Translations under genes and position numbers: made by a program | Shown: positions 5,353 to 48,551 of the stretch, piece by piece | Numbering within the stretch: position 1 is the stretch's first letter | How the letters are laid out: every line of letters begins with the position of its first letter | From: Clostridia bacterium | Lineage (GTDB): Bacteria > Bacillota > Clostridia > Christensenellales > CAG-138 | Direction of reading: 5' to 3' | Length of the DNA: 64,000 bases | Assembly (NCBI GenBank): GCA_017429985.1 | Contig: JAFRNW010000010.1 | Span: 193,700-257,699, forward strand | Notes under the pieces: generated by a model | What the model was told of the DNA's origin: nothing | Seen by the model: the letters and a program-made list of their open reading frames with translations, nothing else | Databases searched by the model: none

Positions 5353-6123
5353 TCAGAACAGCCCCGAAAGAAGGTCATATGCTTCGCGGAGGAAGAAAAC
5401 GACGAGCACGCCGATCATAACGGGCTTGACGGCCTTCACGCCTCTGCCGATAAACAGCGATGTTCCGATCCAGTTCCCCAGAATGCTGAAGCATCCCGCA
5501 GCAAGTCCGAGCGGTACGACGACCGCTCCGCTGAACAGATAGACGGCAAGGGATGCCGCGTTGCTTGAAAGGTTGATCACTTTCGCGACGCCGTTGGCCT
5601 CCTGCAGACGAAGGCGCACGACGGCTGTCAGCAGGATCAGCAGGAAGGTCCCCGTTCCGGGGCCGTAGAATCCGTCGTACATCCCGATGCTGAACGAGAT
5701 CGCGGCGCCGAGCAGATATGCCGCTTTTTTGGATCTGGGCTCGCGTTCCTCGTCCAGGATCCGTCCCTTCAGGACAAGCACGGCCGTCAGCGGAAGCAGA
5801 AACAGCATGACGGTCTTCAGGACGTTTTCGCGGATGAGCAGGGACAGCCTTGCGCCGAGCGAGGATCCCGCCAGGGCGAACGCCGCGCAGAACAGCGCGT
5901 ACGCCCAGCGGACGTACCCCTTTCTGGTATATCGGTAAACGGCGACGGACGTTCCCATGGTGGAAGCGAGTTTGTTCGTCGCGATCGCCGCGTGGGCGGG
6001 AAGGCCCGCGATCATGTAGGCGGGCAGCGTGATCAGTCCGCCTCCTCCGGCGATGCCGTCGACGATACCCGCCAGGAGAACGAGAGGGCAGACGATCAGA
6101 TATGCCATGATCCCGGGATTCAT
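5353..6123 (-). CDS. TSUP (TauE/SafE) family membrane transporter
   Basis: 256 residues, almost entirely hydrophobic, with about seven or eight transmembrane segments and the two internal family repeats: an N-terminal GIVDGIAGGGGLITLPAYM segment and a related GMYDGFYGPGTGTFLLILL segment in the second half. TSUP proteins export or import sulfite, sulfoacetate or related organic anions; the substrate here cannot be assigned. Its ATG overlaps the stop of the upstream minus-strand gene (6120-6123), and it converges on the NimA-like gene with an 11-bp gap. Confidence 0.85.
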   Translation of the reverse strand: MNPGIMAYLIVCPLVLLAGIVDGIAGGGGLITLPAYMIAGLPAHAAIATNKLASTMGTSVAVYRYTRKGYVRWAYALFCAAFALAGSSLGARLSLLIRENVLKTVMLFLLPLTAVLVLKGRILDEEREPRSKKAAYLLGAAISFSIGMYDGFYGPGTGTFLLILLTAVVRLRLQEANGVAKVINLSSNAASLAVYLFSGAVVVPLGLAAGCFSILGNWIGTSLFIGRGVKAVKPVMIGVLVVFFLREAYDLLSGLF

Positions 6124-6563
6124 CCGCGTTTCCTCCCGAAGAGCTGTTTCAGGTCAAACTCCAGCGGACGTTTCCGGAATCCGGCGGCGATCTCCTCTTC
6201 CGGCAGGATCCGGAAGGCGCGCTTCGGATATCTGCGGTTCCATTCGTCGCGGAAGGCTTCCGCGAAGGCTTCGCATTCCGGACGTCCGGAGCGCAGCAGC
6301 ATCGGGATCAGGAACATCACGGTGCGGACGCGGTCGTTTTCCATCTCCGCCGCCCGGCTGAAAACGGACACGCCTTTCCATCTGGCCTCGAGCGCGTCCA
6401 TGACTTCGCGCGCGGCCGATCCGCAGTCCGAGGCAAGGAGCTGTTCCCCGCACGGTTCCGCGTGATCCAGGACATAACGGTCCAGGACGCCGGGATAGTC
6501 GCGCCTGGTCTGCGCACTTGCCCAGTCGACCGGATCCGTTACGGCTTCCAGCAAAGCGTTCAT
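6120..6563 (-). CDS. Hypothetical protein translationally coupled to TSUP transporter
   Basis: 147 residues, soluble, with no motif that I recognise. It is rich in Arg, Glu and aromatic residues and predicted helical, with a C-terminal basic tail. Its stop overlaps the start of the TSUP transporter gene (ATGA), so it is very likely produced together with it. A minus-strand TATACT (6625-6620) could be its -10 box. The function is not inferred. Confidence 0.6.
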   Translation of the reverse strand: MNALLEAVTDPVDWASAQTRRDYPGVLDRYVLDHAEPCGEQLLASDCGSAAREVMDALEARWKGVSVFSRAAEMENDRVRTVMFLIPMLLRSGRPECEAFAEAFRDEWNRRYPKRAFRILPEEEIAAGFRKRPLEFDLKQLFGRKRG

Positions 6564-6772
6564 GAAATGTTCCTCCCGCCGGAAGGGAGATGCGGTTCCC
6601 CCTGCGGCTTTTCTGTATCAGTATAGCGCATCCGGACGGCTTCTGTCGCGCTCCGTTGCCGGAGAACGGACCGGAAGAGCAAAAAGCGGGCGTTCATGAC
6701 TTGAAACCGGCCCGGATCTGCCGCAAAATGTATAGATATAAAAGCGGTGAAACCGCCCGGAGGTTTATATAC
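6564..6772. promoter_or_regulatory. Divergent promoter region
   Basis: This region separates the minus-strand TSUP operon from the plus-strand thioesterase gene. TATACT on the minus strand (6625-6620) is a candidate -10 box. On the plus strand TTGAAA (6701-6706) lies 17 bp before CAAAAT (6724-6729), a weak candidate promoter. The GGAGG at 6759-6763 decides the GTG start of the thioesterase. Confidence 0.4.
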
Positions 6773-7495
6773 GTGTATCCTTCCTCGTATGAAAGGGAAA
6801 TGAAGATCCTTCCGTCCGTCTGCGACTGGGCGGGAAGACTGTCCGTTTGGGATACGTTCGCGCTGTTCATGGATATGGCGACGGAGCATGCGGACGCGCT
6901 CGGGATCGGCCTGAAGGATCTGGCGAAGCGGGATCTGTTCTGGCTGACCGTCAAAACGAAGGTGCATTTCTTGAAACGTCCGAAAATGGGGGAGCTGGTC
7001 ACCGTCTCGACCTGGCCGGAACCGCCGCAGCTTCTCAGGTGCAACAGGGATTATTCCGTTTCCCGGAACGGGGAGACGATCCTGACCGGAAAAACCGAAT
7101 GGGCGGTCATGAACATGAAGACGGGCAAGCTGCAGAAGGCGGAGGAGATCTATCCGCCGGAACTGGTGCTGCTGGACCGCCGGGTGATGCCGGAACCCTT
7201 TGCGAGGCTCCGCTGTGCCGGGGAGGAAGAGACGTTCGGCACCTATACGGTCCGGTCGACGGATATCGACATCGGCGGGCACATGAACAACGCTGCCTAT
7301 GTCCGTGCCTTTGCGGGGCTTCTGGACACCGCGCAGTGGAAGAGCATGCTGTTTTCCGATCTGGAAGTGCATTTCCGCACGCAGTGCTTTGAGGGGGATA
7401 CGCTGACGTTCCGCAGGAGCGCGTCGGAAAACGGATGTCTGGTCCAGGCATATCTGCCGGACGGCAGGACAGCCGTGCAGATACAGATCTCCTGA
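6773..7495 (+). CDS. Acyl-ACP thioesterase
   Basis: 240 residues from the GTG at 6773, chosen because a GGAGG sits 9 bp upstream and the protein then starts YPSSYEREMKI as usual for this family. It has two hot-dog folds in tandem: the first around LSVWDTFALFMDMATEHA through TEWAVMN, the second around STDIDIGGHMNNAAYVRAF, where the HMNN segment carries the catalytic Asn of acyl-ACP thioesterases. It releases free fatty acids from acyl-ACP. It is followed 16 bp later by the GNAT-CinA fusion. Confidence 0.85.
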   Translation: MYPSSYEREMKILPSVCDWAGRLSVWDTFALFMDMATEHADALGIGLKDLAKRDLFWLTVKTKVHFLKRPKMGELVTVSTWPEPPQLLRCNRDYSVSRNGETILTGKTEWAVMNMKTGKLQKAEEIYPPELVLLDRRVMPEPFARLRCAGEEETFGTYTVRSTDIDIGGHMNNAAYVRAFAGLLDTAQWKSMLFSDLEVHFRTQCFEGDTLTFRRSASENGCLVQAYLPDGRTAVQIQIS

Positions 7496-7511
7496 CAGAC
7501 GGAGGGAATCC

Positions 7512-8600
7512 ATGGATATCGAGACGATTGAAATCAGAGCTTACCGGAGGGAAGACCTTCCGTCCATGATCCGCATATGGAATCAGGTCGTGGAGGAGGG
7601 GATCGCTTTTCCGCAGGAGGAATGTCTGGACGATGAGACCGGGGAGGCTTTTTTCGCTTCCCAGACGTTCTGCGGGGTCGCGGCGGACGCCGGCGGAACG
7701 GTTCTCGGACTGTATATCCTGCATCCGAACAACGTCGGGAGATGCGGGCATATCTGCAACGCGAGCTATGCCGTGGAACGGGGCGTGCAGGGACTGCATA
7801 TCGGGGAAAAACTGGTCATGCACTGTCTGGAGGAGGCAGGGAGGCAGGGCTTCGGGGTCCTGCAGTTCAATGCCGTCGTCGCATCCAATGTCCACGCGAG
7901 GCATCTGTATGAAAGACTGGGATTCGTTCCGCTCGGAACGATCCCGGACGGATTCCGCCGGAAGGACGGAAAGTTTGAGGATATCTGCCCGTATTACATC
8001 AGTTTGCGGGGCTGCTCCGGACTGGAACGGGGAACGGAGAAGCAATCCGTTCAAAGAGATGAACTTCTGAAGAACGTGCGGGAGCGGTACGCCGCGCTCA
8101 CATCCGCTCTGATCGCGCGCGGGATCACGGTGACGGCGATGGAAAGCTGCACTTCCGGGCTGGTCGCGTCCCTGCTCACGGATACCGATCACGCGTCCGA
8201 AGTGTTCCGCGGGAGCTTCGTCACATACGGCAACGAAGAAAAGATCCGGCGCGGCGTTCCCGAGGAAACGATCCGCCGTTACGGGGTATACTCGGAGGAG
8301 ACCGCCGCGGCCATGGCCGGAGCCTGCAGGAAGGCGTTCGGAACGGACATCGGGATCGGCGTGACCGGTTCGCTCGGCATTCGGGATCCGGAAAACGCGG
8401 ACAGCGAGCCCGGAAGGGTTTATTACGCAATAGACTGCTTCGGAACGGTCGTTTCGCGCGTTGCGGAACTTCCGGATCTGGGATCCAAGTTCCTCGGGAA
8501 AGTCTATACGGCGGGGCTAGTCGCCGATGAGATCGGCCGGCTGCTGCGGGAAGACGGGATCCCGGATCTCAGACCGGCGGAAGAAACGCAGACATTCTGA
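7512..8600 (+). CDS. GNAT acetyltransferase fused to CinA C-terminal (PncC-like) domain
   Basis: 362 residues in one frame. Residues 1-165 are a GNAT N-acetyltransferase (IEIRAYRREDLPSMIRIWNQ, acyl-CoA segment ERGVQGLHIGEKLVMHCLEEA, and ASNVHARHLYERLGF). Residues about 190-345 match the CinA C-terminal domain, a nicotinamide-nucleotide amidohydrolase: MESCTSGLVASLL, VTYGNEEKIRRGV and GVTGSLGIRDPEN, with SEPGRVYYAI. The domain normally deamidates NMN in pyridine nucleotide salvage. No stop or frameshift separates the halves. Whether the acetyltransferase acts in the same pathway is unknown. Confidence 0.85.
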   Translation: MDIETIEIRAYRREDLPSMIRIWNQVVEEGIAFPQEECLDDETGEAFFASQTFCGVAADAGGTVLGLYILHPNNVGRCGHICNASYAVERGVQGLHIGEKLVMHCLEEAGRQGFGVLQFNAVVASNVHARHLYERLGFVPLGTIPDGFRRKDGKFEDICPYYISLRGCSGLERGTEKQSVQRDELLKNVRERYAALTSALIARGITVTAMESCTSGLVASLLTDTDHASEVFRGSFVTYGNEEKIRRGVPEETIRRYGVYSEETAAAMAGACRKAFGTDIGIGVTGSLGIRDPENADSEPGRVYYAIDCFGTVVSRVAELPDLGSKFLGKVYTAGLVADEIGRLLREDGIPDLRPAEETQTF

Positions 8601-8650
8601 CGGAACCGACACGGGTCACAGGGAGCACAGGAGATCGAAAGGTAGAAACA

Positions 8651-9766
8651 ATGGCGACGATTAAGGATTATCTGACGTGGCGCGGGGATCTGTCGTTCGG
8701 GACGGATCCGCTGAACGAGGTGGATAATTACATACTGGCGAAGGTCGGATGCCCGGACTATTCCGGCATCATTCCCGAAAGCGGCGGTACCGTTCCGCTC
8801 CGGGACGCGGTCCGCGCTTTTTTTGAGAGCCAGAAGAAAGACGACGTTTCCTTCGGGGCGCTTGCCTCCGGACAGATCGCTTCGGTTCTCAGAAGGCTGC
8901 CCGGGACGAAGCGGTTCGGAGAAGTCGGGCTGACGGGATTCATCAAGAAGCTCGAGCCCTCCTCAACGGAGCAGTTCTCGGCGCTGACGCTTCTCCTTCC
9001 CGACCGGACGGCTTATGTCAGCTTCCGGGGAACGGATGACACGCTGATCGGATGGAAGGAAAACATGATGATGTCCGTGACGGACGCCATTCCGGCGCAG
9101 AAGGACGCGCTCGCGTATCTGAACATGGCGGCCAGAAGGTTTTCCGGCCCCCTGATCGTCGGGGGGCATTCCAAAGGAGGGAATCTGGCGGTCTACGCGG
9201 CCGCCATGGCGGACCCCGCGATCCAGAGACGGATCCGTGCCGTATACAACAACGACGGACCCGGTTTCACGGACGCGTTTCTGCAGCAGGAGGGATACCT
9301 GAGGATCCGCCCGAAGCTTCACACCCTGCTTCCGCAGTTCACGCTGGTCGGCATGATGCTCAAGCGGGAAAAGAACGTGTCCATCGTATTGAGCCCCCGT
9401 CCGGGACCGTCCGCGCATGACGGATTCCAGTGGGAGGTGTCCGGGCCGAGGTTTGTCCGCTGCGAACAGTTCAGCAGGAGCTCCCTCTCGTTCGAGGAAT
9501 CGCTTCACAACGTACTGGAAGGCATGGATACCGAGGCGCGGATAACGTTTATCAGCCAGCTGTTCAATACGCTTGAGGAAGCCGGGGCGTCGACCGTGAC
9601 GGACCTTTCGGAGATGCAGGCAAGAAAAGGGCTGGAGCTGTTCCGGAAAGTGCGGAATCAGCCCGAGGTCGGGAAATTCCTGTCCTCCCTGATCGAGCAG
9701 ATGCTGAAGGATTATGCTTCCGGCACCCGCGCGGGCCGCGTGATCGACCGGCTCATGGACAGATGA
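8651..9766 (+). CDS. Mbeg1-like (DUF2974) alpha/beta hydrolase
   Basis: 371 residues. The core resembles class-3 lipases: strand and oxyanion segment YVSFRGTDDTLIGWKEN (about 118-134), then the nucleophile elbow GGHSKGGNLAVYAA with Ser174, followed by YNNDGPGF. This matches DUF2974 proteins annotated as Mbeg1-like. The N-terminal MATIKDYLTWRGDLSF motif is also typical. No signal peptide is seen, so it is probably cytoplasmic. The lipid or ester substrate is unknown. It ends just before a strong terminator. Confidence 0.82.
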   Translation: MATIKDYLTWRGDLSFGTDPLNEVDNYILAKVGCPDYSGIIPESGGTVPLRDAVRAFFESQKKDDVSFGALASGQIASVLRRLPGTKRFGEVGLTGFIKKLEPSSTEQFSALTLLLPDRTAYVSFRGTDDTLIGWKENMMMSVTDAIPAQKDALAYLNMAARRFSGPLIVGGHSKGGNLAVYAAAMADPAIQRRIRAVYNNDGPGFTDAFLQQEGYLRIRPKLHTLLPQFTLVGMMLKREKNVSIVLSPRPGPSAHDGFQWEVSGPRFVRCEQFSRSSLSFEESLHNVLEGMDTEARITFISQLFNTLEEAGASTVTDLSEMQARKGLELFRKVRNQPEVGKFLSSLIEQMLKDYASGTRAGRVIDRLMDR

Positions 9767-44687: not shown

Positions 44688-44751
44688 CACCAAATAAAAG
44701 CGGTTTTTCACCAAATCGGCTGTATGCAGAAGATGAGGAAGCGTTTACAAT
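44688..44751 (+). promoter_or_regulatory. CACCAAAT direct-repeat promoter 1 (probable LytTR site)
   Basis: Two exact copies of CACCAAAT begin at 44688 and 44709, a 21-bp period, with a 13-nt spacer. A -10-like TACAAT lies at 44746-44751, 37 bp after the start of the second copy; no clear -35 is present, as expected for an activator-dependent promoter. Direct repeats of about 9 bp on a 21-22 bp period are the usual binding pattern of LytTR regulators, and such a regulator is encoded 0.4 kb downstream. Confidence 0.72.
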
Positions 44752-44814: not shown

Positions 44815-45039
44815 ATGCTGGAAGATCTGCAGGAAGCCACAATGGAAGACCTCGCAAACGTAACGGGTGGCGCAGGCACCAGGTTCTACATCTACACGGT
44901 AAAAAAGGGAGACACGCTGTCGGGAATCGCAAAACGGTACCATACCACGGTCAGTGAGCTGATGTTTCTGAACAGCGAAAAGATCAAGGATCCCGATTTG
45001 ATCATAACGGGCTGGAAACTGCTCATTCCCATCGGATGA
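44815..45039 (+). CDS. Double-glycine leader peptide with LysM domain
   Basis: 74 residues from ATG 44815, chosen because AAGGGGG lies 9 bp upstream; an in-frame ATG at 44767 is too close to the promoter. Residues 1-20 ([18 protein letters not shown]) form a double-glycine leader of the kind removed by C39-peptidase ABC exporters. The remaining approximately 54 residues are one LysM domain: [19 protein letters not shown] ... [13 protein letters not shown], which binds peptidoglycan sugars. The predicted product is a small secreted wall-binding protein. No exporter is found in the window. Confidence 0.8.
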
Positions 45040-45124: not shown

Positions 45125-45850
45125 ATGCTCAGGATAGCTGTTTGCGGCGGGAAAGACGCCGCGGACAATGGAATGGAAAACATGCTGCAGGATTACAGGG
45201 ACTCCTCGAAGCGGGAGATCCTGTGGGACTGCTATGCGTCGGGAGAGGAACTGCTCCGCGCGGTCGATGAATCCGGCGAGTACGATGTCTATTTCCTGGA
45301 TATCGATGCGGAGACGGGAGCCGGGCTTGAAACGGCGAGAACGCTCCGTTCCAGAGGCTTCAACGGAAAGATCATTTTCGTTTCCGAATCGCCGGATTAC
45401 GTGTTCCGTTCGTTTGAGGTGCAGCCCTACCGCTATTTCCTGAAACCCGTCCCGCAGGAGGATCTGAAAAAGGCGCTGGACGAGATCTGCAGTTCCATTA
45501 CGCGCCGCACCGTCGTGCTGGTCAAGTCCAGGAACGGGGACTGCATCGTGCCGGTCAGGGATATCCTGTACATTGAGAAGGTGGACCGGACCGCGTGTTT
45601 CCACCTGATCGACGGGACGACCGTCACCAGCATGTCGTTCCGCGGGGGGTTCCATACGATGATCGACAACATTGAGGGGCTGGGGCATTCCTTCTTTCCG
45701 TACATGTCCGGCGCGGTCGTCAATCTGATGAACGTCCGCTTCTTCAAGAGCAGTTCCTACGAGATCTATCTGAGAACAGGGGAGATCCTGTTCTGCTCGA
45801 GAACGAAAGCCGCGGAATTCCGGAAGGCGTTCGTCCAGTATCAGCTGTAG
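45125..45850 (+). CDS. LytTR-family response regulator with atypical receiver
   Basis: 241 residues. Residues 1-122 follow the receiver fold (YDVYFLDIDAETGAGLETAR, with the expected phospho-Asp near 56-57, and YRYFLKPVPQEDL). The acidic pair normally found at the end of strand 1 is replaced by CGGKD. Residues about 135-240 are a LytTR DNA-binding domain (LVKSRNGDCIVPVRDILYIEK, FHLIDGTTVTSMSFRGGF, FFPYMSGAVVNLMNV). No histidine kinase is adjacent. Its likely targets are the CACCAAAT direct repeats upstream of the LysM and SH3b leader-peptide genes. Confidence 0.87.
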   Translation: MLRIAVCGGKDAADNGMENMLQDYRDSSKREILWDCYASGEELLRAVDESGEYDVYFLDIDAETGAGLETARTLRSRGFNGKIIFVSESPDYVFRSFEVQPYRYFLKPVPQEDLKKALDEICSSITRRTVVLVKSRNGDCIVPVRDILYIEKVDRTACFHLIDGTTVTSMSFRGGFHTMIDNIEGLGHSFFPYMSGAVVNLMNVRFFKSSSYEIYLRTGEILFCSRTKAAEFRKAFVQYQL

Positions 45851-45985: not shown

Positions 45986-47386
45986 GTGGCGCGTACGGAA
46001 AGAAAGAACACCGGCATGATACGGGACCTGACGGAGGGGAGCATTCCCAAGCTCCTGCTTTCGTTTACCCTGCCGCTGCTTCTGTCCAACGCGCTGCAGG
46101 CCGTTTACAACATCGTGGACATGATCGTAGTGGGGCAGGTGCTCGGCGGAACGGGAATGAGCGCCGTCTCCATCGGCGGTGAGGTGCTGCATTTCCTGAC
46201 GTTTCTTTCTATCGGATTCTCCAACGCCGGGCAGATCCTGATCGCCCGCCTGGTCGGGGAAAAGCGGGAGGACGACATCCGGAAGATGATCGGCACCATC
46301 TTTACGTTCCTGTTCGTGGTCGCCGCCGCCGTTTCCGTTCTGTGCATCGTGTTCCGCCACGGGATCCTGACCGTCCTGAACACGCCTAAGGAATCCTACC
46401 CTGACGCGCTGGATTATGTGACGACCTGCGCGGCGGGGCTCGTGTTCATCTACGGATACAACATCGTGAGCGCGATCCTGAGAGGGATGGGGGATTCCAG
46501 AAGGCCGTTTCTTTTCATTTCCATCGCGGCTGTTCTGAATATCGTGCTGGACGTGCTTTTCGTCGCATATCTCGGGATGGGCGTTTTCGGCGCAGCCCTT
46601 GCGACGGTCCTCGGACAGGGGACCAGCTTTCTGTTTTCCATCGTCTTCCTGTACCGGCGCAGGGATGCGTTCCATTTCGATTTCCGGCCGGAAAGCTTCC
46701 GGATGGATCCTGCGAGCAGGACCGCTCTGCTGAGGCTCGGGATCCCCATGGCGATCCAGTCCGCGTCGGTCAACTTTTCCAAAATGCTCGTGACGTCCTG
46801 GATCAACAGCTACGGCGTGATCAATTCCGCGGTCGCGGGGATATTCAACAAGCTTTCGACCGTGATCAACGTGGTCGGCGCGGCGTTCAACGCGACGGGC
46901 GGCGCCATGATGAGCCAGAATCTCGGCGCGCGGCGGTATGACCGGGTGAAGGGGATTCTCGGATGGGTCCTGCTGTTCGGCGCTTCGATCTCGTCCGTGT
47001 TCTCCCTGATCCTCGTGCTGTTTCCGACACAGGTGTTCGAACTGTTTACGCGGGACAGCGCGGTCCTTCTGGCGGCGCCCGTCATTATTCTGCCATGCGT
47101 CGTCAACTTCTTCGGGACCGCCGTCCGGACCATGGGCTTTGCCATGGTCAACGGCTCCGGCAATTCGCGGCTGAATTTACTGGTTGCCCTGACCGACGGG
47201 ATCGTCGCGCGGATCGGGATCTCCGCCCTGCTGGGCTTTGCGGCCGGACTCGGGTGCCTCGGGTTCTGGCTGGGCGACGCGCTGGCGGGCTATCTTCCCT
47301 TTTTGATCGGAACGGGCTACTATCTGTCCAGGAGATGGATGAAGCAGGAACCTGTCATAGACGGCAAGGAGGAAAAAGATGGATAA
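45986..47386 (+). CDS. MATE-family efflux transporter
   Basis: 466 residues if translation starts at GTG 45986; ATG 46016 (MIRDLTEGSIPKLL) is an alternative that leaves a more usual leader. Twelve transmembrane segments in two bundles with the MATE motifs LLLSNALQAVYNIVDMIVVGQVLGG and, in the second half, LGIPMAIQSASVNFSKMLVTSWINSYG. These proteins expel cationic drugs or metabolites using Na+ or H+. It lies between the two leader-peptide loci but has its own promoter. Its end overlaps the next gene by 8 bp. Confidence 0.87.
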   Translation: MARTERKNTGMIRDLTEGSIPKLLLSFTLPLLLSNALQAVYNIVDMIVVGQVLGGTGMSAVSIGGEVLHFLTFLSIGFSNAGQILIARLVGEKREDDIRKMIGTIFTFLFVVAAAVSVLCIVFRHGILTVLNTPKESYPDALDYVTTCAAGLVFIYGYNIVSAILRGMGDSRRPFLFISIAAVLNIVLDVLFVAYLGMGVFGAALATVLGQGTSFLFSIVFLYRRRDAFHFDFRPESFRMDPASRTALLRLGIPMAIQSASVNFSKMLVTSWINSYGVINSAVAGIFNKLSTVINVVGAAFNATGGAMMSQNLGARRYDRVKGILGWVLLFGASISSVFSLILVLFPTQVFELFTRDSAVLLAAPVIILPCVVNFFGTAVRTMGFAMVNGSGNSRLNLLVALTDGIVARIGISALLGFAAGLGCLGFWLGDALAGYLPFLIGTGYYLSRRWMKQEPVIDGKEEKDG

Positions 47387-47771
47387 CGTATTGTTCGCCG
47401 TGAACGGAACACTGATGCGCGGACTGGAACTGGAGGACAATCTGATCAGGGCGGGCGCCCGGTTTGTCCGCGAGGACAGGACCGCTGGATGCTACCGCCT
47501 CTACAGCATCGACGACGCCTACCCGGCGATGATCCGCACCCGCCCGGACGATCCGGACGCCGGGAAGATCGCGCTTGAGGTCTGGAGCCTTCCTCCGCAG
47601 GGACTTGCGGAGGTCTTTTCCGGGGAGCCGGCGGGCCTATGCATCGGGCGTGTTTTCCTTGAGAACGGGGAAACGGTATGCGGCATGCTCGGGGAGCCGG
47701 AGCTGGTCAGGGGGAAAAAGGAGATCACGGCGTACGGCGGCTGGCGCGCCTATACCGCGCGCAACGCCTGA
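47379..47771 (+). CDS. Allophanate-hydrolase C-terminal-like / gamma-glutamylcyclotransferase-fold protein
   Basis: 130 residues. The sequence FAVNGTLMRGLELEDNLIRAGARFV, YRLYSIDDAYPAMIR, IALEVWSLPPQGLAEVF and GLCIGRVFLENGETVCGMLGE matches the small C-terminal domain of AtzF-type allophanate hydrolases, which has a cyclotransferase-like fold. Stand-alone copies exist, but their reaction is uncertain. GGAGG lies 6 bp before the ATG, inside the end of the MATE gene, so both are made together. Confidence 0.72.
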   Translation: MDNVLFAVNGTLMRGLELEDNLIRAGARFVREDRTAGCYRLYSIDDAYPAMIRTRPDDPDAGKIALEVWSLPPQGLAEVFSGEPAGLCIGRVFLENGETVCGMLGEPELVRGKKEITAYGGWRAYTARNA

Positions 47772-47796: not shown

Positions 47797-47861
47797 CACC
47801 AAATCAGCCCGGAATTTCACCAAATAGACGGTATCTTTTCGATCGGTTCCCGTGCTACACT
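47797..47861 (+). promoter_or_regulatory. CACCAAAT direct-repeat promoter 2 (probable LytTR site)
   Basis: Exact CACCAAAT copies start at 47797 and 47818, again a 21-bp period and a 13-nt spacer. An extended -10 TGCTACACT ends at 47861; the -10 hexamer starts 38 bp after the second copy, against 37 bp at promoter 1. The two sites also share CGGnnTTT before the second copy. The matching geometry strongly suggests one regulator. Confidence 0.75.
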
Positions 47862-47928
47862 GTAACTGTAAAGAAGAGGAAGACTCTTTCAAAACATCTG
47901 AATGAATATAAAACAGGAGGAAGTACCA

Positions 47929-48192
47929 ATGCCAATGCCAAAGATTGACCTGAAGGATCTGGAGAGCGTGACCGGCGGCGTCAACGCAAGAAAGGGTTTT
48001 GTCCTGATCATCAACTGCGAGCATGCCTGCAACGTGAGGGCGCTGCCGGATGCAAACAGCGATAAGATCGGATTCGCGTATGCGAACGAGAAACTCCCGT
48101 ACTACGGAAAATCCGGGAACTGGTACAAAGTGAAGATCAACGACAGCAAATTCGGGTACGTTTACAAGGATTTCATCGCCGTCATAGGCTGA
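47929..48192 (+). CDS. Double-glycine leader peptide with SH3b domain, copy 1
   Basis: 87 residues from ATG 47929, chosen because AGGAGG sits 8 bp upstream. The leader MPMPKIDLKDLESVTGG fits the double-glycine pattern. The mature part of about 70 residues is a bacterial SH3 domain (VLIINCEHACNVRALPDANSDK, KLPYYGKSGNWYKVKIN, FGYVYKDFIAVIG). A CEHAC cysteine pair could form a disulfide outside the cell. Bacterial SH3 domains bind wall peptides. It lies downstream of CACCAAAT promoter 2. Confidence 0.82.
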   Translation: MPMPKIDLKDLESVTGGVNARKGFVLIINCEHACNVRALPDANSDKIGFAYANEKLPYYGKSGNWYKVKINDSKFGYVYKDFIAVIG

Positions 48193-48243
48193 CAGGCGGA
48201 TCACCATCACGAACAATCAAAATGATTCAAGGAGGATATGAAC

Positions 48244-48501
48244 ATGAGCGAAGAACTGAAACTTGAAGAACTCGAAGGTATTTCCGGCGGCTCGAGCGCA
48301 CAGCGGGGACGCGTGGAGATCGTCAACTGCGAGCATGCCTGCAATTTCAGAAGCGGCCCCGGCAAACAGTATGCGATCATCGGCCACGCCTACGCAGGAA
48401 ACGTCTATGCCTACTATGCCAAGGAGAGCGGCTGGTATCTGCTGAAAGTCAGCGGGAAACTCGGGTGGGTCTACAAGGACTTCATCGCGGTCATCGGCTG
48501 A
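48244..48501 (+). CDS. Double-glycine leader peptide with SH3b domain, copy 2
   Basis: 85 residues from ATG 48244 (8 bp after GGAGG; ATG 48238 is too close). The leader MSEELKLEELEGISGG ends in Gly-Gly. The mature SH3b domain is closely related to copy 1, with the same NCEHACN segment and an identical KDFIAVIG end, while the leader and linker differ. It lies 51 bp after copy 1 with no promoter between, so the pair is one operon ending at the terminator at 48522. Confidence 0.82.
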   Translation: MSEELKLEELEGISGGSSAQRGRVEIVNCEHACNFRSGPGKQYAIIGHAYAGNVYAYYAKESGWYLLKVSGKLGWVYKDFIAVIG

Positions 48502-48521
48502 GATCTGTTTTTTGAAACGGG

Positions 48522-48551
48522 CACGGCTCCATACGGGGCCGTGTTTTTTTT
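48522..48551 (+). terminator. Terminator after SH3b leader-peptide operon
   Basis: The stem CACGGCTCC / GGGGCCGTG with an ATAC loop is followed by eight T. Confidence 0.9.

Follow-up and report, generated by a model that had tools for sequence, protein, structure and literature searches.

How two very small SH3b proteins, encoded side by side in a Clostridia bacterium, might leave the cell and what they may do outside it is the question raised by a tandem operon in the window, the 64,000-nucleotide stretch of DNA analysed here. Our answer, which we consider probable, is that the window ORFs encode small wall-binding proteins that leave through a bacteriocin-type exporter and are co-regulated. 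The operon consists of the following features.

47929–48192, plus strand: GG-SH3b_1, a 17-aa double-glycine leader (47929–47979) followed by a 70-aa SH3_3 domain with CEHAC.
48244–48501, plus strand: GG-SH3b_2, a 16-aa double-glycine leader (48244–48291) followed by a 69-aa SH3_3 domain with CEHAC.
48519–48546, plus strand: an intrinsic-terminator-like hairpin of 12 pairs with a T run, downstream of the SH3b operon.

Both genes belong to the same operon and each is preceded by a good Shine-Dalgarno sequence. Against the Pfam SH3_3 model, with a gathering cut-off of 27 bits, GG-SH3b_1 scores 46.7 bits and GG-SH3b_2 39.7 bits; a third copy in the genome, SH3b_3, reaches 24.3 bits and stays under the cut-off. 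The leaders end in LESVTGG and LEGISGG. Since they end in GG and have no strongly hydrophobic stretch, they look like double-glycine leaders and not Sec signal peptides. AlphaFold2 modelling of GG-SH3b_2 with six relatives predicts a helical leader followed by a domain rich in beta strands (pTM 0.62, mean pLDDT 79). The best solved match of SH3b_2, by fold (TM 0.66/0.75) as well as by sequence (E 4.8e-8), is 2krs, an SH3 domain from Clostridium perfringens. Directly upstream of the operon, at 47379–47771, lies a gene for a stand-alone protein resembling the allophanate-hydrolase C-terminal domain and GGACT. A second GGACT/AIG2-like protein is encoded near the NHLM ABC2 gene (L010:16221–16994), and the two may be neighbours of these systems by coincidence.

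The initial annotation rested on the resemblance between the two copies. NCEHACN is indeed common to both, and the C-termini are identical over the last ten residues, VYKDFIAVIG. It was also right that leader and linker differ, with identity at 6/16 and 4/11 residues, respectively. Over the whole length 42 of 85 aligned residues are identical, mostly within two patches, one around CEHAC (8/9) and one at the C-terminal end (8/8). Conservation of the mature domain over the leader, as had been proposed, holds for these patches but not elsewhere, the remaining domain being identical at 16/41 residues against 6/16 in the leader. The DNA of the first patch, around NCEHACN, matches at 26/27 nt. A recent tandem duplication had been suggested as well; because fourfold-degenerate sites agree at only 7/17, near the random expectation of 0.33, we conclude that the duplication is not recent.

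The two cysteines had been taken to suggest an extracellular disulfide. In the AlphaFold2 model of SH3b_2, strand 1 finishes on C29 and strand 2 begins with C33, a three-residue turn separating the two, so a bond would be geometrically possible, but the pair is not conserved. In the third paralogue of the genome the second Cys position is Val. Among seven GG-SH3b proteins found elsewhere none has the pair (0/7), and six have no Cys at the first position; the remaining one, from locus L175 of the isolate Sarcina sp. DSM 11001, has Cys at the first and Leu at the second. Alignment across species, the check that the annotation had put forward for an invariant pair, thus yields homologues without both cysteines, the outcome that the annotation itself had named as refuting the disulfide. 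The disulfide as a class-defining feature was rejected, the pair being absent from the third copy and from the relatives. In long SH3b proteins of the family and of this genome we aligned 110 domains, 99 of which span both Cys positions. Cys occurs at the first in 83/99, a share biased upwards because the proteins had been selected for resembling the window copies, and at the second in 5/99; 69 of the 83 first-Cys domains have no other Cys within the aligned stretch. These alignments mark the first Cys as a trait that the SH3b domains of this lineage have in common, usually without a partner. The long proteins come from loci L012 and L018–L046, and in this biased set a lone Cys commonly ends the first SH3b strand.

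The pair belongs to a set of ten such proteins. With copy 1 as query, the assembly from which the window comes (46 contigs, 2.13 Mb, completeness 98.1%) yielded the third GG-SH3b, on another contig. A second ORF of the window served as starting point for LysM and led to six further GG-LysM genes.

44815–45039, plus strand: GG-LysM_1, a 19-aa double-glycine leader followed by a 55-aa LysM domain, with the direct repeat described below upstream.

The set thus comprises three GG-SH3b and seven GG-LysM proteins of 73–90 aa, those of the LysM type measuring 73–85 aa each. Their leaders are all acidic, with GG in 10/10 and Leu at position -7 in 10/10, and the best 12-residue hydrophobicity mean of the ten N-termini is at most 1.3, with no strongly hydrophobic stretch. 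The mature parts are 55–74 aa long and cationic (pI 9.0–10.1). All three GG-SH3b proteins, the window pair and the third copy, combine a hydrophobic residue at -4, Leu at -7, and a hydrophobic residue at -12; exceptions occur in the LysM leaders, with Ala at -12 in four and Thr at -4 in one. In the peptidase-containing transporter PCAT1, according to the part of the source available, L(-7), L(-12), and position -4 of the leader contact the peptidase (PMC6959990).

A leader-only model of 12 rows, nine of them from this genome, had nine hits here with E up to 10; all are LysM or SH3b genes and all are its own training rows, and at that threshold it found no other leader-bearing cargo in this genome. 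LysM_7 stood outside the training and was missed, which shows that the model is not exhaustive. The SH3b pair and GG-LysM_1 of the window gave no match to the TIGR03793 and TIGR03798 leaders at E up to 1. Bacteriocin_IIc (PF10439, cut-off 27.1 bits) matched SH3b_2 at 12.6 bits, under the cut-off, and SH3b_1 not at all at E up to 1. A contig scan with the alignment of the three copies confirmed no close GG-SH3b relative elsewhere among 98 pattern matches. Among the matches listed from 103 genomes of the family, those starting at position 1 are this genome's three GG-SH3b only; in the other listed SH3b matches the alignment begins no earlier than position 11 and the frame has at least 275 codons. 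Paralogues aside, the closest SH3b domains that we found in genome and family sit in long multi-SH3b proteins of the same lineage.

The genome has one C39 peptidase match only, and it is NHLM ABC1, which scores 906.7 bits against TIGR03796, above the cut-off of 853.3. The adjacent ABC2 is above its cut-off as well (TIGR03797, 715 against 709.4 bits). ABC1 is followed by ABC2 and preceded by a HlyD-like protein of 163 aa, which scores 37.9 bits against TIGR03794, under the cut-off of 156.2, and matches only positions 1–55 of its 421. Comparably short HlyD-like relatives precede ABC1 in two other genomes, G067 and G045. The exporter sits on a different contig from the window. A small domain destined for export, as the initial annotation had it, accords with the GG leader and with the sole C39 match being the NHLM exporter, insofar as sequence can indicate this.

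In a comparison across genomes we counted a GG-LysM protein where the match starts at model position 6 or before, that is, in the leader, and the frame is short (76–137 codons); short frames with a match that does not reach the leader were dropped (G091, G092, and G098 in the family sample, G151 in the order sample). Small GG-LysM proteins occur in 3/103 genomes of the family sample (this genome, G000, with G065 and G067; E up to 1e-12) and in 4/396 of the order sample (G000, G178, G339, and G374; E up to 1e-15). Every one of these genomes, in both samples, carries NHLM ABC1 above cut-off; in all, 10/103 family and 22/396 order genomes have it above cut-off, and 14/103 and 30/396 at E up to 1e-150. 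Leaving out G000 and ignoring kinship, P = 0.015 for the family (two genomes against 13/102 with ABC1 at 1e-150) and, again ignoring kinship, P = 1.3e-4 for the order (three genomes against 21/395 above cut-off). G178, G339, and G374 belong to one family, and the two samples partly overlap. GG-LysM genes are linked to ABC1 in G065, where one is about 0.7 kb away, and in G374, where two are 3.5–3.9 kb away. Most genomes with ABC1 at 1e-150 are GG-LysM-negative at the thresholds used (11/14 in the family, 26/30 in the order), which implies that the exporter also serves other cargo.

A profile search with nine aligned ABC1 proteins, ours and eight related ones that are 62–70% identical to it, gave 552 NHLM loci, the best 80 of which, almost all from gut and rumen Clostridia assemblies, were searched on frames of at least 40 codons with local LysM, SH3b, and CW_7 profiles, partly built from proteins of these loci. 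In these best 80 of 552 loci, 19/19 LysM frames are GG-led (16 by script; those in L162, L170, and L174 by eye), as are 7/8 SH3b frames, the eighth being a frame of 435 codons, and 9/11 CW_7 frames. One of the two non-GG CW_7 frames looks like an out-of-frame overlap and the other is cut by a contig start. GG-led LysM, SH3b, or CW_7 proteins are present in 17 of the best 80 of 552 loci (16 by script, one by eye), with LysM and CW_7 together in six of them, and 63 of the 80 have no such cargo within the DNA examined. Re-testing locus proteins against Pfam confirmed 6/6 for LysM and 4/4 for CW_7; of six SH3b proteins, three are above the cut-off, two below, and one is unmatched. The closest parallel to the window operon among the best 80 of 552 loci is L191, where a tandem GG-SH3b pair without the Cys pair lies upstream of ABC1; one of its copies reaches 19.2 bits against Bacteriocin_IIc (cut-off 27.1). 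A weak Nif11 match is confined to the CW_7 protein of L155 (17.7 against 32.3).

Upstream of both window units we found the same direct repeat, and a candidate regulator lies beside one of them.

47797–47825, plus strand: direct repeat CACCAAAT-N13-CACCAAAT, ahead of the SH3b operon; five such sites were found in the genome.
47856–47861, plus strand: -10-like TACACT, 30 nt after the repeat of the SH3b operon; TGTAAC at 35 nt scores equally.
44688–44716, plus strand: direct repeat CACCAAAT-N13-CACCAAAT, upstream of GG-LysM_1.
44746–44751, plus strand: -10-like TACAAT, 29 nt after the repeat of GG-LysM_1.
45125–45850, plus strand: gene for a LytTR-type response regulator, located after GG-LysM_1; the regulator is a candidate to act as activator at the repeats.

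The ten cargo genes form nine transcription units. CACYRRAT-N13-CACYRRAT occurs in the upstream regions of five (the SH3b_1-2 operon, SH3b_3, LysM_1, LysM_2, and LysM_3), covering 6/10 genes, and is absent upstream of LysM_4 to LysM_7. A scan of the whole 2.13-Mb assembly allowing one mismatch found five sites, all exact and all ahead of these genes; as the pattern was derived from them, the real test is its absence elsewhere in the genome. The reversed control pattern has no site. From the second repeat to the -10-like box the distance is 29 bp in four units (TACAAT in three, TATAAT in one) and 30 bp in the SH3b operon, an alternative hexamer scoring equal to the chosen box in LysM_3 and in the SH3b operon. 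A general sigma-70 scan of the window region called no promoter at the two -10-like boxes, which would fit activator-dependent promoters. When the initial 42 nt of each predicted leader RNA (47866–47907 in the window, for example) are folded to minimum energy, 4/5 units give a small hairpin close to the 5' end; the stem sequences differ, and LysM_3 folds otherwise.

In the 20 kb around the exporter, the repeat gave five matches with three mismatches, against 3.65 by chance, so that the exporter operon does not share it above the chance level. Of 241 loci, 28 have the exact repeat, and every one of the 28 is this genome's own. A free search for 9-mer direct repeats before the GG genes of 16 relatives returned an A/G-rich repeat in L201 (equalled in 0/200 shuffles) and weaker ones in L173 (15/200 shuffles) and L170 (18/200 shuffles). 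This search is a weak one: in our own five units it placed the known repeat top in three, and that of LysM_3 was equalled by 79/200 shuffles.

A period of 21 bp, as in this repeat, is commonly used by LytTR regulators. The genome has two LytTR matches, one behind LysM_1 and the other on another contig, and by eye we noticed no histidine kinase beside either. Receivers of response regulators usually have an N-terminal acidic pair; at that site the receiver of the window regulator reads GGKD by eye. With no kinase noticed nearby, this suggests that the regulator may not depend on phosphorylation. What marks a LytTR regulon in sequence, a LytTR gene together with common direct repeats at the putative target promoters, is present here. 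Regulators similar to the one in the window also lie within 10 kb of some NHLM exporters (L134, L137, L145, L168, L126, L112, and others).

The sequences show the leaders, folds, exporter, repeats, and co-occurrence; cleavage, export, binding of the activator, wall binding, and role are what we infer from them in the following mechanism. The acidic leader of 16–17 aa has residues at -12, -7, -4, and GG that, from sequence, appear to fit a C39 peptidase domain. The sole C39 transporter, consisting of NHLM ABC1, ABC2, and the shortened HlyD-like protein, would cut after GG and export the mature domain of 55–74 aa, both steps being what we infer for the NHLM system because of the co-occurrence and the linkage. 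The five transcription units with the repeat, which hold six of the ten cargo genes, would form a regulon whose repeats of 21-bp period are probably bound by the LytTR regulator encoded next to LysM_1. Outside the cell, the folds suggest, the cationic SH3b and LysM domains would bind peptidoglycan and not cut it. As for their role, we tentatively rank first a coating of the producer's own wall, which would set the access of hydrolases and other wall-binding proteins to it, at a likelihood somewhat short of even. Three observations make us favor the producer's own wall: inspection by eye showed nothing resembling an immunity gene next to the ORFs; we recognised no pore-forming, killing, or catalytic segment, and the mature parts tested match SH3_3, LysM, or CW_7; and the closest SH3b domains that we found come from long multi-SH3b proteins that the lineage itself encodes.

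The main rival turns the same proteins outwards. As bacteriocin-like antagonists, the mature domains would hit the walls of competitors, either unaided or together with a lytic partner; the regulon would then be a class II bacteriocin regulon with an unusual payload. An NHLM exporter, cationic mature domains with pI 9.0–10.1, direct repeats in common among the cargo genes, and several diverged paralogues, one tandem pair among them, are all what such a system would have. However, each of the three observations just given for the producer's own wall counts against antagonism, and we hold it to be possible but clearly less likely, in the region of one chance in a few. SH3b, LysM, and CW_7 modules are also used by phage endolysins and bacteriolysins. 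A particular form of the coat would accordingly be a regulated decoy that occupies the docking sites of lysins and shields the producer from lysis; we regard this as unlikely, less so than the readings that follow. Were it true, some gut Clostridia would have turned a bacteriocin exporter into a device for releasing free wall-binding modules.

Signalling is a further alternative, with at least one GG protein acting as a pheromone sensed by a two-component system that ends in the LytTR regulator. GG-LysM_1 adjoins the LytTR gene and has the repeat upstream, a layout similar to that of autoregulated peptide-pheromone operons. However, the lack of any kinase noticed by eye beside the regulator, the receiver without the usual acidic pair, and a cargo of wall-binding domains, ten in this genome, make signalling improbable. 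We give slightly less credit still to RiPP precursors, in which SH3b and LysM would be scaffolds for chemical modification: NHLM loci classically serve RiPP precursors and were defined beside TOMM and lanthionine enzymes, as the consulted part of the founding description has it (PMC2887384), and Nif11-like and Cys-rich cargo exists in relatives, but the mature parts here match ordinary Pfam domains, SH3b_2 also matches a solved SH3 structure, and Cys is absent from 5/7 LysM mature parts. A chance resemblance to PCAT leaders, on ordinary small proteins that stay in the cytoplasm or are exported by another route, is hardly credible, for although GG motifs are short and export is deduced indirectly, one leader type stands on two unrelated folds in 10/10 proteins, GG-LysM is confined to NHLM genomes in both samples, and NHLM-linked GG-LysM, GG-SH3b, and GG-CW_7 proteins exist elsewhere.

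A coat of exported wall-binding domains, the reading we prefer, is made of parts that are each already known: the exporter, the leader type, and the domains. With NHLP/NHLM systems (TIGR03794, TIGR03796, and TIGR03797; PMC2887384) it shares ABC1 with C39 and ABC2, both above cut-offs, and a HlyD-like neighbour. The founding cargo, in the portion of that paper at hand, had nitrile-hydratase-like or Nif11-like leaders beside TOMM or lanthionine enzymes (PMC2887384), whereas here the leaders are short, the cargo consists of SH3b and LysM domains, and the HlyD-like subunit has only 163 aa; LysM and SH3 have no occurrence in the main text of that paper (Haft 2010, PMC2887384). PCAT1 offers a comparable size class, its cargo CtA being, in the excerpt available, a chain of 66 residues after a 24-residue GG leader with comparable positions -12, -7, and -4 (PMC6959990). 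In that same excerpt, CtA is not described as wall-binding, and PCAT1 is a homodimer, unlike the two ABC proteins of NHLM (PMC6959990).

Class II bacteriocins (Bacteriocin_IIc, PF10439) are alike in leader type, size, and a cationic mature part, but the mature part here consists of an entire wall-binding domain, and we noticed no immunity gene. In fold the domains resemble the wall-binding modules of lysins and Sec-secreted proteins (SH3_3, PF08239; LysM, PF01476; CW_7, PF08230), with which they presumably share the class of ligand; in contrast to those, each module stands alone behind a GG leader, without enzyme or Sec signal. LytTR bacteriocin and competence regulons of the AgrA/ComE type have dispersed direct repeats two helical turns apart before the -10 box. 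The layout of repeats ahead of a -10 box and the LytTR gene beside one unit are alike here, but no sensor kinase was noticed beside the regulator and the targets are wall-binding domains.

What appears to be new is the combination, an NHLM system with stand-alone wall-binding domains as its recognisable cargo, most of it behind one promoter element. In the part of the open-licence PMC literature covered, we found neither GG-leader SH3b or LysM cargo nor comparable NHLM cargo described. Annotations assign NHLM exporters to bacteriocin or RiPP systems; the cargo here and in 17 of the best 80 of 552 loci includes whole wall-binding domains, of three unrelated folds. If our reading is true, a good share of the "bacteriocin" systems in gut and rumen Clostridia would release wall-binding microproteins. 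Five promoters, one candidate regulator, ten cargo genes, and one exporter also make a test set for the benefit that a non-enzymatic wall binder brings to its producer.

Other GG-leader proteins lie in the related NHLM loci. Upstream of ABC1 in L145 (uncultured Marvinbryantia sp., 5582–9466) there is a tandem array of twelve GG-leader paralogues whose mature parts are rich in Cys and contain GGGG; the one tested has no Pfam or NCBIfam match. The GG-leader proteins of 141–150 aa at L155:1175, L162:8088, and L170:14438 have mature parts that look alike and match nothing in Pfam. Beside ABC1 in G013, G012, G030, and G045 (loci L094, L095, L096, and L097), several GG-leader mini-proteins per locus carry, by eye, zinc-ribbon-like Cys motifs of the form CPxCG...CxxC and look like another folded-domain cargo of NHLM exporters.
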